Assembly: GCA_021815825.1 (NCBI GenBank)
Contig: JAKAZO010000026.1
Span: 1-35,149 of the forward strand
DNA from: Pseudomonadota bacterium
Lineage (GTDB): Bacteria > Pseudomonadota > Alphaproteobacteria > Acetobacterales > Acetobacteraceae
DNA length: 35,149 nucleotides
Direction of reading: 5' to 3'
The notes beneath the pieces were generated by a model that did no database searches, was not told where the DNA came from, and worked only from the letters and a program-made list of their open reading frames with translations. Positions 4,931 to 21,040 of this stretch are shown here, one piece after another. Every line of letters starts with the position of its first letter. Position 1 is the first letter of the stretch. The translations under genes were made by a program, and so were the position numbers.

Positions 4931-7444
4931 TCAGCGGCGCAGCGCCGCGAGCGCGGCGAAGGGGCCGGAAGCCTGTGGAGGGGGCGGGCGAACCGGGCGG
5001 CGGTGCGCACGTGCGCGGCCCGCGCCCGCGGCAGGCGCGGCGAGCAGGGCGGGCCCGCCATCGGGGCAGGCTGCCGCCGGAACGAGGGCGAACCCGAGGC
5101 CGCGCAACACCGAGGAAAGATGCTCGGTCTTTACCGAGAGGCGCGACGCGAGCCCCGCCGGCACCGGTGCCGGTCCGTGTTTGAGCTGGCGCGCCAGCTC
5201 GGCGCCGACGCGCTCGGCGATATCGAGGCGCAGCAGCACCGGCCCGGCCGCCACCCAGCCCATGGCCGCCGCGAAACCCTCCGGCCAGCCGGTGGGCGGC
5301 GCGATCGCGACGCGGCCGGGCGGCACCGGCGCCGGTGCGCTGATCCCCCGGTCCACGGCCCAGAGCAGCCCGCGCAGGCGCTGCGGACCTGGCTTCAGCA
5401 ACGCTGGCATGAACAGCGCGTGCTGGCCGGCGCGAACGCCGAGCGCTCGCAGCCGGCCGCGCAGCGCCGGGCCGATCGGCGCGCCATCGGTCGCCGTCGC
5501 GCCGGGCGCGATGCCGAGGGTCTCGAGCAGCCGGTGCAGCGGCCCGCGCAGGGCCGCATCCGACGCCGAAGCGGCGGCGGCGGCGAAGAGCGGGGCCAGC
5601 TCGCGCTGAACCGTGGTGTCGAGGACGCGCTGCAGCCGCTGGCGCACCGCCTCACGCTGCGGCCCGTCCAGGAACTCGCTGGCCAGCGGTTCGGCACGGG
5701 GACGAAGTGGCTCCGCTCCGCGCGCCAGCCGGCCGACCGGCACGCCATCCCAGGTGATCTGCCCGTCCGAAGCGACGATGAAATCAGCATCCGCCGCCGC
5801 CGTCAGTGCGGCCACGCGCCGGGGCATCTCGCTGCCGAGTGCGCGACGCGCGGCGCGCAGGACCAAGCGGCGGTCATCGGCGGTGGCGTCGGGGTCGGGG
5901 TGGAATGTCAGTCCGGCGACGTGGCCGACCTCGTGGCCCTCGACGAGAACCGCGCCCGCGCGCGTCACCGCGGCGAGCAGTTCCTCGCCTTCGGTCGACT
6001 CGAGCCGGCGCATCAGGTGGCTGGCGCGGCGATCGACGAAGCGCGCCAGCAGCCGCTCGTGCAGCGCGTCCGAGAGTCGGTCCTCGACCGCGCGCGCGCG
6101 CTCCTGCCAGTGCACGGCGTTGCGCAGCCAGTCGGCCCGCGCCGCGATGAAGGCCCAGACGCGGATGCCGGCGAGGCGCGCCATCAGCGTGTCGATATCC
6201 CCCTCCGTGCGCGCCAGCGATTCGATCTGCCCGGCGAGCCAATCCTCTGGCAGCCGCCCCTCGCGCACGAGATGGGAGAAGACGCGGGCGCAAAGTCGCA
6301 TATGACTGTCATCGGCGAGCTTGCGGAAATCCGGGATCTGGCAGGCTTCCCAGAGCAGCCGCACGCGCGCCGGCCCGGTGGCGAGGCGGTGGGTCTCGGC
6401 GTCGCGCGCCAGGGCGATGAGGGTGAGCAGGTCGGCGGCATCGTTGCCGCGCACCAGGCCCCGCCGCGGCGGCGGCGCCGCCAGGGTGGCGAGCAGGGCC
6501 TCGACCGAGCTGAAATCGAGCGCGTCATTGCGCCAGCAGAGTTCACCGAGGGGTTCGAAGACGTGATCCTCGACGGCGCGGGCGATATCGTCGTCGAGCG
6601 GCGGGCAGGTGCCGGTGGTGCCGAAACTGCCGTCGCGCATGCCGCGCCCGGCGCGCCCGGCGATCTGCCCGAGCTCGGCAGCGCCGAGCGGGCGGCGGCG
6701 GTGGCCGTCGAACTTGCCGAGCCCGGCGAAGGCCACGTGATCCACGGCCATGTTCAGCCCCATGCCGATGGCGTCCGTGGCGACGAGGTAGTCGACCTCC
6801 TTCGCCTGGTAGAGCGCGACCTGGGCGTTGCGGGTGCGTGGCGAAAGCCGGCCCATCACCACAGCGCAGCCGCCGCGGCGTCGGCGGATGGTCTCGGCCA
6901 GGGCGTAGACCTCCTCGGCGCTGAAGGCGACGATGGCGGTGCGCGGCGGCAGCCGGGCGAGCTTGGTCGGCCCGGCATGCACCAGCTGGGACAGGCGCGG
7001 GCGTGTTTCCACCACCGCCTGTGGCACCAGCCGCTGCAGCAGCGGGCGGATGGTCTCAGCGCCCAGGAACATCGTCTCCACCAGCCCCCGGGCGCCGAGC
7101 AGACGCTCGGTGAAGACATGGCCACGATCGGGGTCGGCGCAGAGCTGGATCTCGTCCACGGCGACGAACTCGACGCTCTGCAGGCGGGCCGGCGGCATCG
7201 CCTCGACGGTGCAGGAGAACCAGCGAGCCTCCGGCGGGATGATTTTTTCCTCGCCGGTGATCAGCGCCACGTGCCGCGCGCCCTTGGCCGCGACCATGCG
7301 GTCATAGTTCTCGCGCGCCAGCAGCCGCAGCGGGAAGCCGATGATGCCGGACCGGTGCGCCAGCAGGCGCTCGATCGCGAGATGCGTCTTGCCGGTATTG
7401 GTGGGCCCGAGCACCGCGCGGACCCGCGGGGAGAAATCCGCCAT
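4931..7444 (-). CDS. Suv3-like DExH-box superfamily 2 helicase
   Basis: 837 residues, ATP-dependent, probably RNA-directed by homology to mitochondrial SUV3. Walker A is GPTNTGKT (13-20) and motif II is the Suv3-type DEIQ (97-100). Motif V is VATDAIGMGLN (221-231) and motif VI QIAGRAGRG (260-268). The remaining 550 or so residues are the helical C-terminal region plus an Ala/Pro/Arg-rich end. SUV3 works in mitochondrial RNA degradation; the bacterial role is less clear, and here an S4 RNA-binding protein follows directly. The ATG at 7444 was chosen because the first helicase motif begins 12 residues in; the open frame runs far upstream antisense to htpG, which is a shadow. Confidence 0.93.
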   Translation of the reverse strand: MADFSPRVRAVLGPTNTGKTHLAIERLLAHRSGIIGFPLRLLARENYDRMVAAKGARHVALITGEEKIIPPEARWFSCTVEAMPPARLQSVEFVAVDEIQLCADPDRGHVFTERLLGARGLVETMFLGAETIRPLLQRLVPQAVVETRPRLSQLVHAGPTKLARLPPRTAIVAFSAEEVYALAETIRRRRGGCAVVMGRLSPRTRNAQVALYQAKEVDYLVATDAIGMGLNMAVDHVAFAGLGKFDGHRRRPLGAAELGQIAGRAGRGMRDGSFGTTGTCPPLDDDIARAVEDHVFEPLGELCWRNDALDFSSVEALLATLAAPPPRRGLVRGNDAADLLTLIALARDAETHRLATGPARVRLLWEACQIPDFRKLADDSHMRLCARVFSHLVREGRLPEDWLAGQIESLARTEGDIDTLMARLAGIRVWAFIAARADWLRNAVHWQERARAVEDRLSDALHERLLARFVDRRASHLMRRLESTEGEELLAAVTRAGAVLVEGHEVGHVAGLTFHPDPDATADDRRLVLRAARRALGSEMPRRVAALTAAADADFIVASDGQITWDGVPVGRLARGAEPLRPRAEPLASEFLDGPQREAVRQRLQRVLDTTVQRELAPLFAAAAASASDAALRGPLHRLLETLGIAPGATATDGAPIGPALRGRLRALGVRAGQHALFMPALLKPGPQRLRGLLWAVDRGISAPAPVPPGRVAIAPPTGWPEGFAAAMGWVAAGPVLLRLDIAERVGAELARQLKHGPAPVPAGLASRLSVKTEHLSSVLRGLGFALVPAAACPDGGPALLAAPAAGAGRARAHRRPVRPPPPQASGPFAALAALRR

Positions 7445-7488
7445 GGCGGGAGTTTCCGGCCCCGGCGCGCCGAGTGCAAGCACCGAAC

Positions 7489-7536
7489 GATGACGCCCCA
7501 CCCGGATGATGCCCCACCCGGATGATACCACGCCGG
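7489..7536. repeat. 16-bp tandem duplication between helicase and htpG
   Basis: GATGACGCCCCACCCG (7489-7504) is followed directly by GATGATGCCCCACCCG (7505-7520), differing at one base. A partial third copy starts GATGATACCA (7521). The block lies in the 153-base divergent region, just upstream of the htpG promoter candidate. It could be slippage or a regulatory repeat. Confidence 0.6.
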
Positions 7537-19517: not shown

Positions 19518-19612
19518 GGTCTGCCTCCTTTATCGTGCAGCGCGGCGGTCTTCGCGGGTTGGAGCCGAACGGGATGCAAGCCGGCCACCCCTCGTTAGTC
19601 CGCCGCTTTTGC

Positions 19613-19621
19613 TGCACTGCA
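19613..19621. promoter_or_regulatory. TGC-N3-GCA operator-like site just after the phasin start point
   Basis: TGCACTGCA, inside the larger TTGCTGCACTGCAACA. It lies at about +5 to +13 relative to the predicted phasin transcription start, a classic repressor position. PhaR/AniA regulators of phasin genes in alphaproteobacteria recognise TGC-N3/4-GCA-type dyads, so PhaR is the natural candidate. Binding is inferred. Confidence 0.5.
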
Positions 19622-19632
19622 ACACAAGCTGG

Positions 19633-19660
19633 TAGATAGGCCATCCCGCCGTCGTGTCAA
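19633..19660 (-). promoter_or_regulatory. Sigma-70-type promoter of the phasin gene
   Basis: On the minus strand, TTGACA (19660-19655) is a perfect -35 box. After a 16-base spacer comes TATCTA (19638-19633), a good -10. The predicted start is near 19626, giving an mRNA leader of about 108 bases to the GTG at 19517. Confidence 0.65.
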
Positions 19661-19670
19661 GCGGTTTTGG

Positions 19671-19679
19671 TGCGATGCA
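19671..19679. promoter_or_regulatory. Second TGC-N3-GCA operator-like site upstream of the phasin promoter
   Basis: TGCGATGCA, within the longer dyad GTGCGATGCAC. It lies 10 bases upstream of the -35 box and 58 bases from the first site, center to center. The two sites bracket the promoter. Confidence 0.45.
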
Positions 19680-19828
19680 CAATTTAGTGATTCCGAGGCT
19701 TGCGCCGCCGCCGTCGCGTGCGTCCGCAACTGTTCCCGTTAACCCATTCATAGGCATCAGGTTTCGTCTGGACATCCGGGCCGGGCGGTTATAGGATCGC
19801 GCGACGCAATCGCATAGGGTCGAAGGGC

Positions 19829-21040
19829 ATGATTCTGGGTCTGCGGCAAGCCGCTTTGCAGTCGTTCGCGCCCAGCTTGCGCCTGCCATCCGGCCCCTTT
19901 TCGCGATTGCGGGCCGTGCTGCTGGCCGTGCTGCTGGGGTGCGCCATGCTTGGCGGCGGTCCAGCGTGGGCTCAGATCGGTTCGGACCGATACAGTTCCA
20001 TGGTGATCGACGCCAGCTCCGGCTCGATTCTCTCGGCGGCCAATCCGGACGCTCCGCGCTACCCGGCCAGCCTGACCAAGATGATGACCCTGTACATGAC
20101 GTTCGAGGCGCTGCGCGACCGCCGCCTCACGCTCGATGCCCCGGTGCCGGTTTCAGCCGCCGCCGCGTCCGCAGCCCCCTCCAAGCTCGGGATTCGGCCC
20201 GGGACCCGCCTCACCGTGCAGGAGGCGATCCTGGCCCTGGTGACGAAGTCCGCCAACGACGCCGCAGTCGCCCTGGCCGAACGACTCGGCGGCAGCGAGG
20301 ATCGCTTCGCGCAGATGATGACCCTGCGGGCGCGCGCCCTCGGCATGACACGGACGACGTTCCGCAATGCTTCGGGCCTGCCGGACCCGGAACAGGTCAC
20401 GACCGCGCGCGACCAGGCGACTCTGGCGCGCCATCTGGTCCGGGATTTCCCCGATCAGTACCGCTATTTCAGCGTCTCCGGATTCGTCTTCCATGGCCGC
20501 ACGATCCCCAACCATGACAATCTGCTGCGGACCTATGTCGGCGCTGACGGGATCAAGACCGGCTATACCGACGCGGCCGGCCATAATCTCGTTTCCAGCG
20601 CGACGCGCGGGGATGTGCGGCTGATCGGCGTGGTCATGGGGGCGGGCTCCAACCCCGAGCGGGATGCGCACATGATGGCGCTGCTCGATCAGGGGTTCGC
20701 GCGGATGAATGTGGCCGAGCCCGCTTCCGGCTCGATGCCGCTGCTGGCGCACCTGCCGTCCCTGGTGCCAAGCGCGCACGCGGCCACGGTGCAGGCGCGC
20801 GGTGCGCCCCGCGTGCATCTCGCCCATTCCCGCCACGGCACAACCGGGCGCGGCGTGGTTCGACTCGCGGCGCTGCGCGCGCGCCCCGCCGCGACCGCCG
20901 ACGGGCAGGAGACGGCGCGCGGCGCGCATCCGCATCGGCCGCACAAGGCGCAGTTCGCGGCGGCCAAGGGACAGGCGGAGCGGGCCTGCAGCACCTGTCC
21001 CACGCACACGCCGCGGAGCCACCAACTCGCCCGAAGCTGA
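19829..21040 (+). CDS. D-alanyl-D-alanine carboxypeptidase (S11, PBP5/6-like)
   Basis: 403 residues. Exported enzyme that trims the terminal D-Ala from peptidoglycan stem peptides. A signal sequence (basic then hydrophobic, RAVLLAVLLGCAMLGG) ends in PAWA, with likely cleavage after residue 48. The three penicillin-binding motifs are intact: S81LTK84, S141AN143 and K243TG245. After the catalytic domain (to about 300) there is no recognisable PBP5 C-terminal beta domain or membrane-anchor helix. Instead there is a roughly 100-residue tail rich in Ala, Arg, His and Pro with two cysteines (ACSTC). GAAGGGC precedes the ATG. It starts the plus-strand group dacA-map-radC. Confidence 0.93.
   Translation: MILGLRQAALQSFAPSLRLPSGPFSRLRAVLLAVLLGCAMLGGGPAWAQIGSDRYSSMVIDASSGSILSAANPDAPRYPASLTKMMTLYMTFEALRDRRLTLDAPVPVSAAAASAAPSKLGIRPGTRLTVQEAILALVTKSANDAAVALAERLGGSEDRFAQMMTLRARALGMTRTTFRNASGLPDPEQVTTARDQATLARHLVRDFPDQYRYFSVSGFVFHGRTIPNHDNLLRTYVGADGIKTGYTDAAGHNLVSSATRGDVRLIGVVMGAGSNPERDAHMMALLDQGFARMNVAEPASGSMPLLAHLPSLVPSAHAATVQARGAPRVHLAHSRHGTTGRGVVRLAALRARPAATADGQETARGAHPHRPHKAQFAAAKGQAERACSTCPTHTPRSHQLARS

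Follow-up and report, generated by a model that had tools for sequence, protein, structure and literature searches.

A phasin promoter in an Acetobacteraceae genome, bracketed by a conserved pair of operators, is probably controlled by PhaR

The phasin gene in a 35,149-nucleotide stretch of an Acetobacteraceae genome (contig JAKAZO010000026.1 of assembly GCA_021815825.1, hereafter the window) is preceded by a promoter that is probably under the control of PhaR (probability about 0.87): two PhaR dimers would clamp the promoter, and PHA would titrate PhaR away. This analysis established the operator sequences and how widely they are conserved, the promoter-like sequence they enclose and the presence of a PhaR gene in the genome. 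By analogy with other species, PhaR would bind and repress this promoter, be titrated by PHA and act there in the oligomeric state seen elsewhere, and phasin would be released on PHA formation, as the initial annotation of the sequence had predicted. The promoter is real. Its kind and its two-operator layout are already known, because passages of PMC12849132 describe footprints at Ralstonia eutropha phaP1, and the promoter is largely ordinary.

On the minus strand, the promoter region reads TGCATCGCA, 10 nt, TTGACA, 16 nt, TATCTA, 11 nt and TGCAGTGCA (Table 1). On the plus strand, the two sites read TGCACTGCA (19613-19621) and TGCGATGCA (19671-19679). Direct reading confirmed that two TGC-N3-GCA sites bracket the phasin promoter at a distance of 58 bp, centre to centre, as the initial annotation had stated. 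Its description of the promoter as near-consensus held for the -35 hexamer and was generous for the -10 hexamer, which is weak. The promoter was absent from the output of a consensus scan that required at least four of six matches per hexamer and, in the second hexamer, a T as the sixth base. Each operator is a TGCRNYGCA palindrome flanked by T at -7 and A at +7. The upstream operator sits directly before the -35 hexamer, and the downstream operator falls around the start of transcription, taking the start as predicted from the position of the -10 hexamer.

Table 1. Features of the phasin promoter region and its flanking genes, in positions of the window.
Feature	Position	Strand	Basis and remarks
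Phasin gene, GTG start, 180 aa	18975..19517	-	PF09361, E 4.3e-20; TIGR01841 above cut-off
Shine-Dalgarno sequence AGGAGG	19524..19529	-	Upstream of phasin GTG
Downstream operator including T-7/A+7	about 19610-19624	-	Centre about +9 from predicted start
Downstream PhaR-type operator core TGCAGTGCA	19613..19621	-	Predicted; about +5 to +13; direct read and family conservation
Predicted transcription start	19625..19625 (about +/-2)	-	From position of -10 hexamer
-10 hexamer TATCTA	19633..19638	-	16-nt spacer; 3/6 against TATAAT
-35 hexamer TTGACA	19655..19660	-	6/6 to consensus
Upstream operator including conserved T-7/A+7	about 19668-19682	-	Centre about -50 from predicted start; 10 nt to -35
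Upstream PhaR-type operator core TGCATCGCA	19671..19679	-	Predicted; direct read and family conservation
D-Ala-D-Ala carboxypeptidase gene, divergent neighbour	19829..21040	+	PF00768, E 4.5e-61

The gene downstream of the operator pair was identified as a phasin gene by both PF09361 and TIGR01841, and its GTG start with a GAGG-type Shine-Dalgarno sequence recurred in two genomes of the same genus (L008 and L009). Elsewhere in the window, an 840-aa open reading frame (5003-7525, plus strand) lies directly before an HSP90 gene; it may or may not be a gene, and no Pfam match was found for it at E 0.001.

The motif TGCNNNGCA (TGCN3GCA) occurred 22 times in the window, against 18.9 expected. Single motifs were therefore not enriched and one site by itself would mean little, which favors the view that a common 6-base motif fell into this arrangement by chance in GC-rich DNA. 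The conservation of the pair argues against that view. Phasin was found in 102 of the 150 Acetobacteraceae genomes searched, and the upstream region was read for 101 primary loci; the phasin of G012, at a contig edge, was excluded, and the pair is nonetheless present on that contig (C215). A strict pair was present in 93 of the 101 loci, representing 66 of 71 genera, and in only 22 of 5050 Markov-resampled 700-bp regions (0.44%). The spacing was 54-60 bp in all 93 strict loci (mean 56.9, sd 1.4), with 48-66 bp permitted in the search. Six of the eight remaining loci had a pair with one mismatch, and in the other two (L129 and L136) a pair was not found even with one mismatch allowed. Second-copy phasin loci of the family had the pair in four of nine cases. 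In a second family collection (the best 80 of 156 loci, with organisms partly shared with the first), the pair was present at 54-60 bp in 79 of 80 loci, including those of the cultured Rhodopila globiformis (L208, spacing 58 bp), Acidisphaera rubrifaciens, Acidisoma silvae and Limobrevibacterium gyesilva. The chance reading is refuted by this conservation in the two collections, and we assign it a negligible probability.

The conserved features extended beyond the palindromic arms. The middle triplet was R-N-Y at both sites in all 93 loci, with any triplet permitted in the search. T at -7 was present in 92 upstream and 90 downstream sites, and A at +7 in 93 and 92, respectively. In L008 and L009, both arms were kept and the upstream site varied in its middle bases (ATC, GCC, GTC), always as R-N-Y. 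Across the family loci, the upstream site preferred the flanks TTGTGC...GCACAA and the downstream site TGCTGC...GCAGCA; the two sites thus represent slightly different flank classes at fixed places. As called by script, the upstream core ended 8-12 nt before the -35 hexamer in 92 of 93 loci, the promoter spacer was 17 or 18 nt in 81 of 93 (16 nt in the genus of the window) and the downstream core started 6-12 nt past the -10 hexamer.

In genome-wide scans, the pair pattern covered only pairs whose first site, on either strand, begins with TGCA. Among the matches listed, it was found in at least 90 of the 150 family genomes and its reversed control gave six matches in five genomes; a single-site scan gave 412 sites among the matches listed, compared with 158 for the reversed pattern. 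In the source genome, the matches listed for pairs with a TGCA first site were the phasin promoter and a second pair at G000:C46:64442-64509, which has no evident promoter. A promoter-like pair was also seen near a contig end (G004:C77:217-280) in another genome, one that yielded no gene in the phasin search; it may belong to a phasin gene cut by the assembly.

PhaR is the predicted ligand of both operators. The source genome has one PhaR match (PF05233, E 1.6e-18; PF07879, E 2.1e-30), and PhaR was detected in 117 of the 150 family genomes and in 97 of the 102 that carry phasin. The conserved extended motif of the family phasin promoters is identical to PhaR motifs given in passages of published work. 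These motifs are YTKNTGCRNYGCANMAR in R. eutropha, where positions 1-4 and 7 from the centre are conserved (PMC12849132), TGCRNYGCASMA in Bradyrhizobium (PMC6201568), a longer, AT-armed WNWD2NYGCRNYGCRNH2WNW in Sinorhizobium meliloti (PMC12542648), and TG[N]TGC[N]3GCAA in Herbaspirillum and CTGC[N]3GCAG in R. sphaeroides (PMC3206438). The claim of the initial annotation that PhaR recognises this class of site is supported by the motif identity, the phaR gene in the genome and the conservation of the pair in the family, the class and beyond.

A regulator other than PhaR might read the pair, or the upstream site might serve the divergent carboxypeptidase gene. Five phasin-bearing drafts, in which PhaR (PF05233, PF07879) was not found, all keep the pair (G039, G065, G075, G094 and G113, with loci L016, L025, L125, L012 and L013, respectively), as would be expected of another regulator. 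These drafts consist of 200-1240 contigs each, and assembly gaps are a likely, though not proven, explanation for the missing PhaR. The carboxypeptidase gene was beside phasin in 80 of 80 loci of the second collection (best 80 of 156) and divergent in all 69 of those loci whose upstream flank spanned 2800 bases or more. Synteny is therefore uninformative on whether the pair controls the divergent gene, and it was dropped as a means of excluding such control. The orientation of the promoter argues against the divergent gene: in 90 of the 93 pairs, a -35-like TTG located 6-13 nt past the upstream core is oriented toward phasin. Against another regulator, the motif is that of PhaR and the same pair marks phasin genes throughout the class and outside it. 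We consider both variants very improbable, and the carboxypeptidase gene is not thought to be part of the switch.

PhaR-like sites were over-represented upstream of phaR itself. A strict site was present in 7 of 30 phaR loci (1.0% by chance) and a site with one mismatch allowed in 18 of 30 (10.3% by chance); no site was found in the other 12 even with one mismatch, and these 30 loci include L044, L048 and L053, all three without a site. This over-representation fits with autoregulation of phaR. The initial annotation had proposed a search for the same pair upstream of phaC or phaR in this genome: the phaR gene of the source genome has one upstream site with one mismatch, and a strict site was not found in the stretches fetched for its two phaC loci. 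Nor was a strict site found in the stretches fetched for the two other phasins of the genome (L003 on C116 and L004 on C106). L004 has a single site matching at 5 of 6 positions about 170 bp before the phasin domain match, and a phaC lies about 4 kb away on that contig. These negatives count against the PhaR reading, as do the 12 phaR loci without a site, the second-copy phasin loci without the pair, L129 and L136, the weak -10 hexamer and, above all, the five drafts that keep the pair. By eye, two stretches of contig C73 of the source genome (L001:1-80 and about 825-905) show repeats: the contig end carries short tandem repeats, which fall within the last part of the phaR frame or close to it, and upstream of phaR some 40 bp are duplicated.

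Three published phasin promoters resemble that of the window, as described in passages of the cited papers. At R. eutropha (Cupriavidus necator) phaP1, PhaR footprints lie directly upstream of the -35 hexamer (BS1) and around the start (BS2) (PMC12849132; restated in PMC3206438), so that the palindromes, the motif and the downstream phasin gene are as in the window. A third PhaR site is predicted inside the R. eutropha gene (PMC12849132). Binding and repression were demonstrated in R. eutropha (PMC12849132), whereas the promoter of the window is known from its sequence. Bradyrhizobium diazoefficiens phaP1 also is a phasin gene with two TGCRNYGCA-type sites, footprinted there with PhaR (PMC6201568). 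Its sites are 29 bp apart (positions -101 and -72 relative to the start codon) and flank only the -35 hexamer (PMC10888616), whereas those of the window flank the whole promoter at 58 bp. S. meliloti phaP1, controlled by AniA/PhaR, has two copies of the palindrome, which are 18 bp apart by table coordinates and flank the -35 hexamer (PMC12542648); this phasin gene is derepressed upon PHB accumulation (PMC12542648). With its 58-bp spacing, the window does not have the rhizobial layout, in which only the -35 hexamer is flanked at 18-30 bp.

The proposed cycle is modelled on these systems. Free PhaR would bind both palindromes, one centred at about -50 and abutting the -35 hexamer, the other centred at about +9 on the start region. 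The bound dimers, which might associate into a tetramer, would clamp the promoter and exclude RNA polymerase. When PHA begins to form, the granule surface would attract PhaR, leaving both operators vacant, and phasin would be made. Phasin would then coat the granules, PhaR would be freed and repression would be restored. A review summarises such a titration cycle (passages of PMC9049629), and passages of PMC6201568 report that PHB nearly abolishes PhaR binding in Bradyrhizobium.

The pair was also common outside the family. In a collection of 289 genomes of the class, a phasin matching the profile was found in 104 and the upstream regions of 89 loci outside the family were read; 31 matches (weaker, second-copy or at contig edges) were excluded from the fetched loci. 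Of the 89 loci, 88 had one or more sites carrying T at -7 or A at +7, and 73 had two or more. The median spacing was 55-60 bp in 37 of the 43 class families that have a pair. The medians of the other six were 30, 41, 48, 64, 67 and 68 bp. The 41-bp median (family f81) was rejected as an artefact of the rule for choosing pairs, being the mean of 64 and 18; in one f81 locus (L279), two of three sites are 47 bp apart. The 64-bp median comes from one locus (family f112) and matches no step in spacing. Among the 21 phasin loci that were readable outside the class, 16 had a pair at 56-61 bp and five had a single site.

In one further phasin search, the best 30 loci and 20 more were fetched; L319 and L359 were excluded from the spacing counts as short. 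Layouts other than the common one were confined to particular lineages. The spacing was 45-50 bp in 29 of 30 loci of family f13 (L327-L355 and L244), where the downstream site nearly abuts the -10 hexamer, and 60-67 bp in all 12 readable loci of family f105 (L316-L326, L242 and L253), with values of 60, 61, 64, 65, 66 and 67 bp and seven loci at 67. Family f159, with large genomes and many phasins, had 29-30 bp in all 10 fetched loci and in L379, which is the arrangement published for Bradyrhizobium (passages of the papers cited above). Family f160 had 21-22 bp in 7 of 10 fetched loci and 29-31 bp in three, and L373 had a single strict site. The gap from the upstream site to the -35 hexamer was nearly constant, with means of 9.9-11.4 nt across the four groups measured. 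The mean distance from the -35 hexamer to the downstream site was 37.5 nt in f13, 47.2 in the family of the window (30 loci), 47.9 outside the class and 54.0 in f105.

These distances bear on how the two operators would act together. The initial annotation had called the layout classic for looping or for two bound dimers. The layout itself was upheld; a steric block by two dimers fits it equally well, and the co-variation of gaps that might have pointed to looping was absent from a second sample. In the simpler version of the PhaR reading, each operator acts alone, the downstream dimer blocking the start or escape of RNA polymerase and the upstream dimer blocking its alpha subunit or sigma at -35, and the spacing reflects promoter anatomy only. 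The near-constant placement of the upstream core before the -35 hexamer, both in the family and across the four groups, is consistent with independent action, as is the absence of gap co-variation among 109 loci. Passages of the published work lend further support: one copy of the palindrome, either one, was enough for PhaR binding in S. meliloti electrophoretic mobility shift assays (PMC12542648), and the R. eutropha authors favored steric hindrance (PMC12849132). Against independence, mutation of either box weakened binding in Bradyrhizobium (PMC10888616), and two-site fragments of R. eutropha phaP3 were shifted at a lower PhaR concentration, from which the authors inferred cooperation (PMC12849132). 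We lean slightly toward independent action.

Alternatively, one PhaR tetramer may bridge both operators, with a short loop of about 58 bp holding the promoter in the repressed state, as with LacI. The tight spacing in the 93 strict family loci would be expected of a loop, and the spacings of two other families, near 48 bp in one and up to 67 bp in the other, depart from it by about one helical turn. According to passages of PMC10888616, Bradyrhizobium PhaR in solution occurs mostly as a tetramer, and the Paracoccus protein is a homotetramer. The R. eutropha authors compared the layout to the lac operators (passages of PMC12849132), and the signs of cooperation between sites in R. eutropha (PMC12849132) and Bradyrhizobium (PMC10888616) also favor a loop. 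However, the family has seven spacing values, and by arithmetic a helical repeat of 10.5 bp makes 58 bp about 5.5 turns, placing the operators on opposite faces of relaxed DNA. Compensation between the two gaps was considered as a sign of looping and rejected. It was present in the first sample (r -0.33, 93 loci; r -0.40, permutation p 0.0018, with one locus per genus, n 66) but absent in the second (109 loci; raw r -0.02; independent contrasts r -0.016, p 0.43) and is therefore not used as evidence for looping. We consider bridging by one tetramer unlikely.

The spacings hint that the downstream site, mostly at about 57 bp and in some families at about 48 or 67 bp, moves in steps near one helical turn. 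The dual PhaR operator of Proteobacteria may then follow a helical-register rule, with the upstream site fixed to the -35 hexamer, the downstream site shifting among about 48, 57-58 and 67 bp and PhaR contacting itself in a fixed rotational setting. If this rule holds, PhaR must touch itself across the promoter. The one-turn steps between families were recognised after the fact, and the graded spacings within f105 (60-67 bp) and f13 (45-50 bp) leave room for continuous drift. We regard the rule as tentative and rather doubtful.

Neither the family-wide conservation of the pair nor the lineage-specific shift of the downstream site was described in the passages of the cited papers or, by title, among the open-access papers searched, a scope that sets aside subscription papers and databases such as RegPrecise; the whole word PhaR was absent from the RegPrecise paper PMC7744130. 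The analysis adds support, drawn from sequence, for a PHA-responsive switch in the Acetobacteraceae, a family for which the open-access titles searched included none on PhaR. The two-operator layout of the R. eutropha type was the commonest among the phasin promoters sampled in the class, and close spacing around the -35 hexamer was seen in the rhizobial-type families sampled. The natural spacing variants (45-50, 54-60 and 60-67 bp) provide material for distinguishing looping by PhaR from mere blocking of the promoter.
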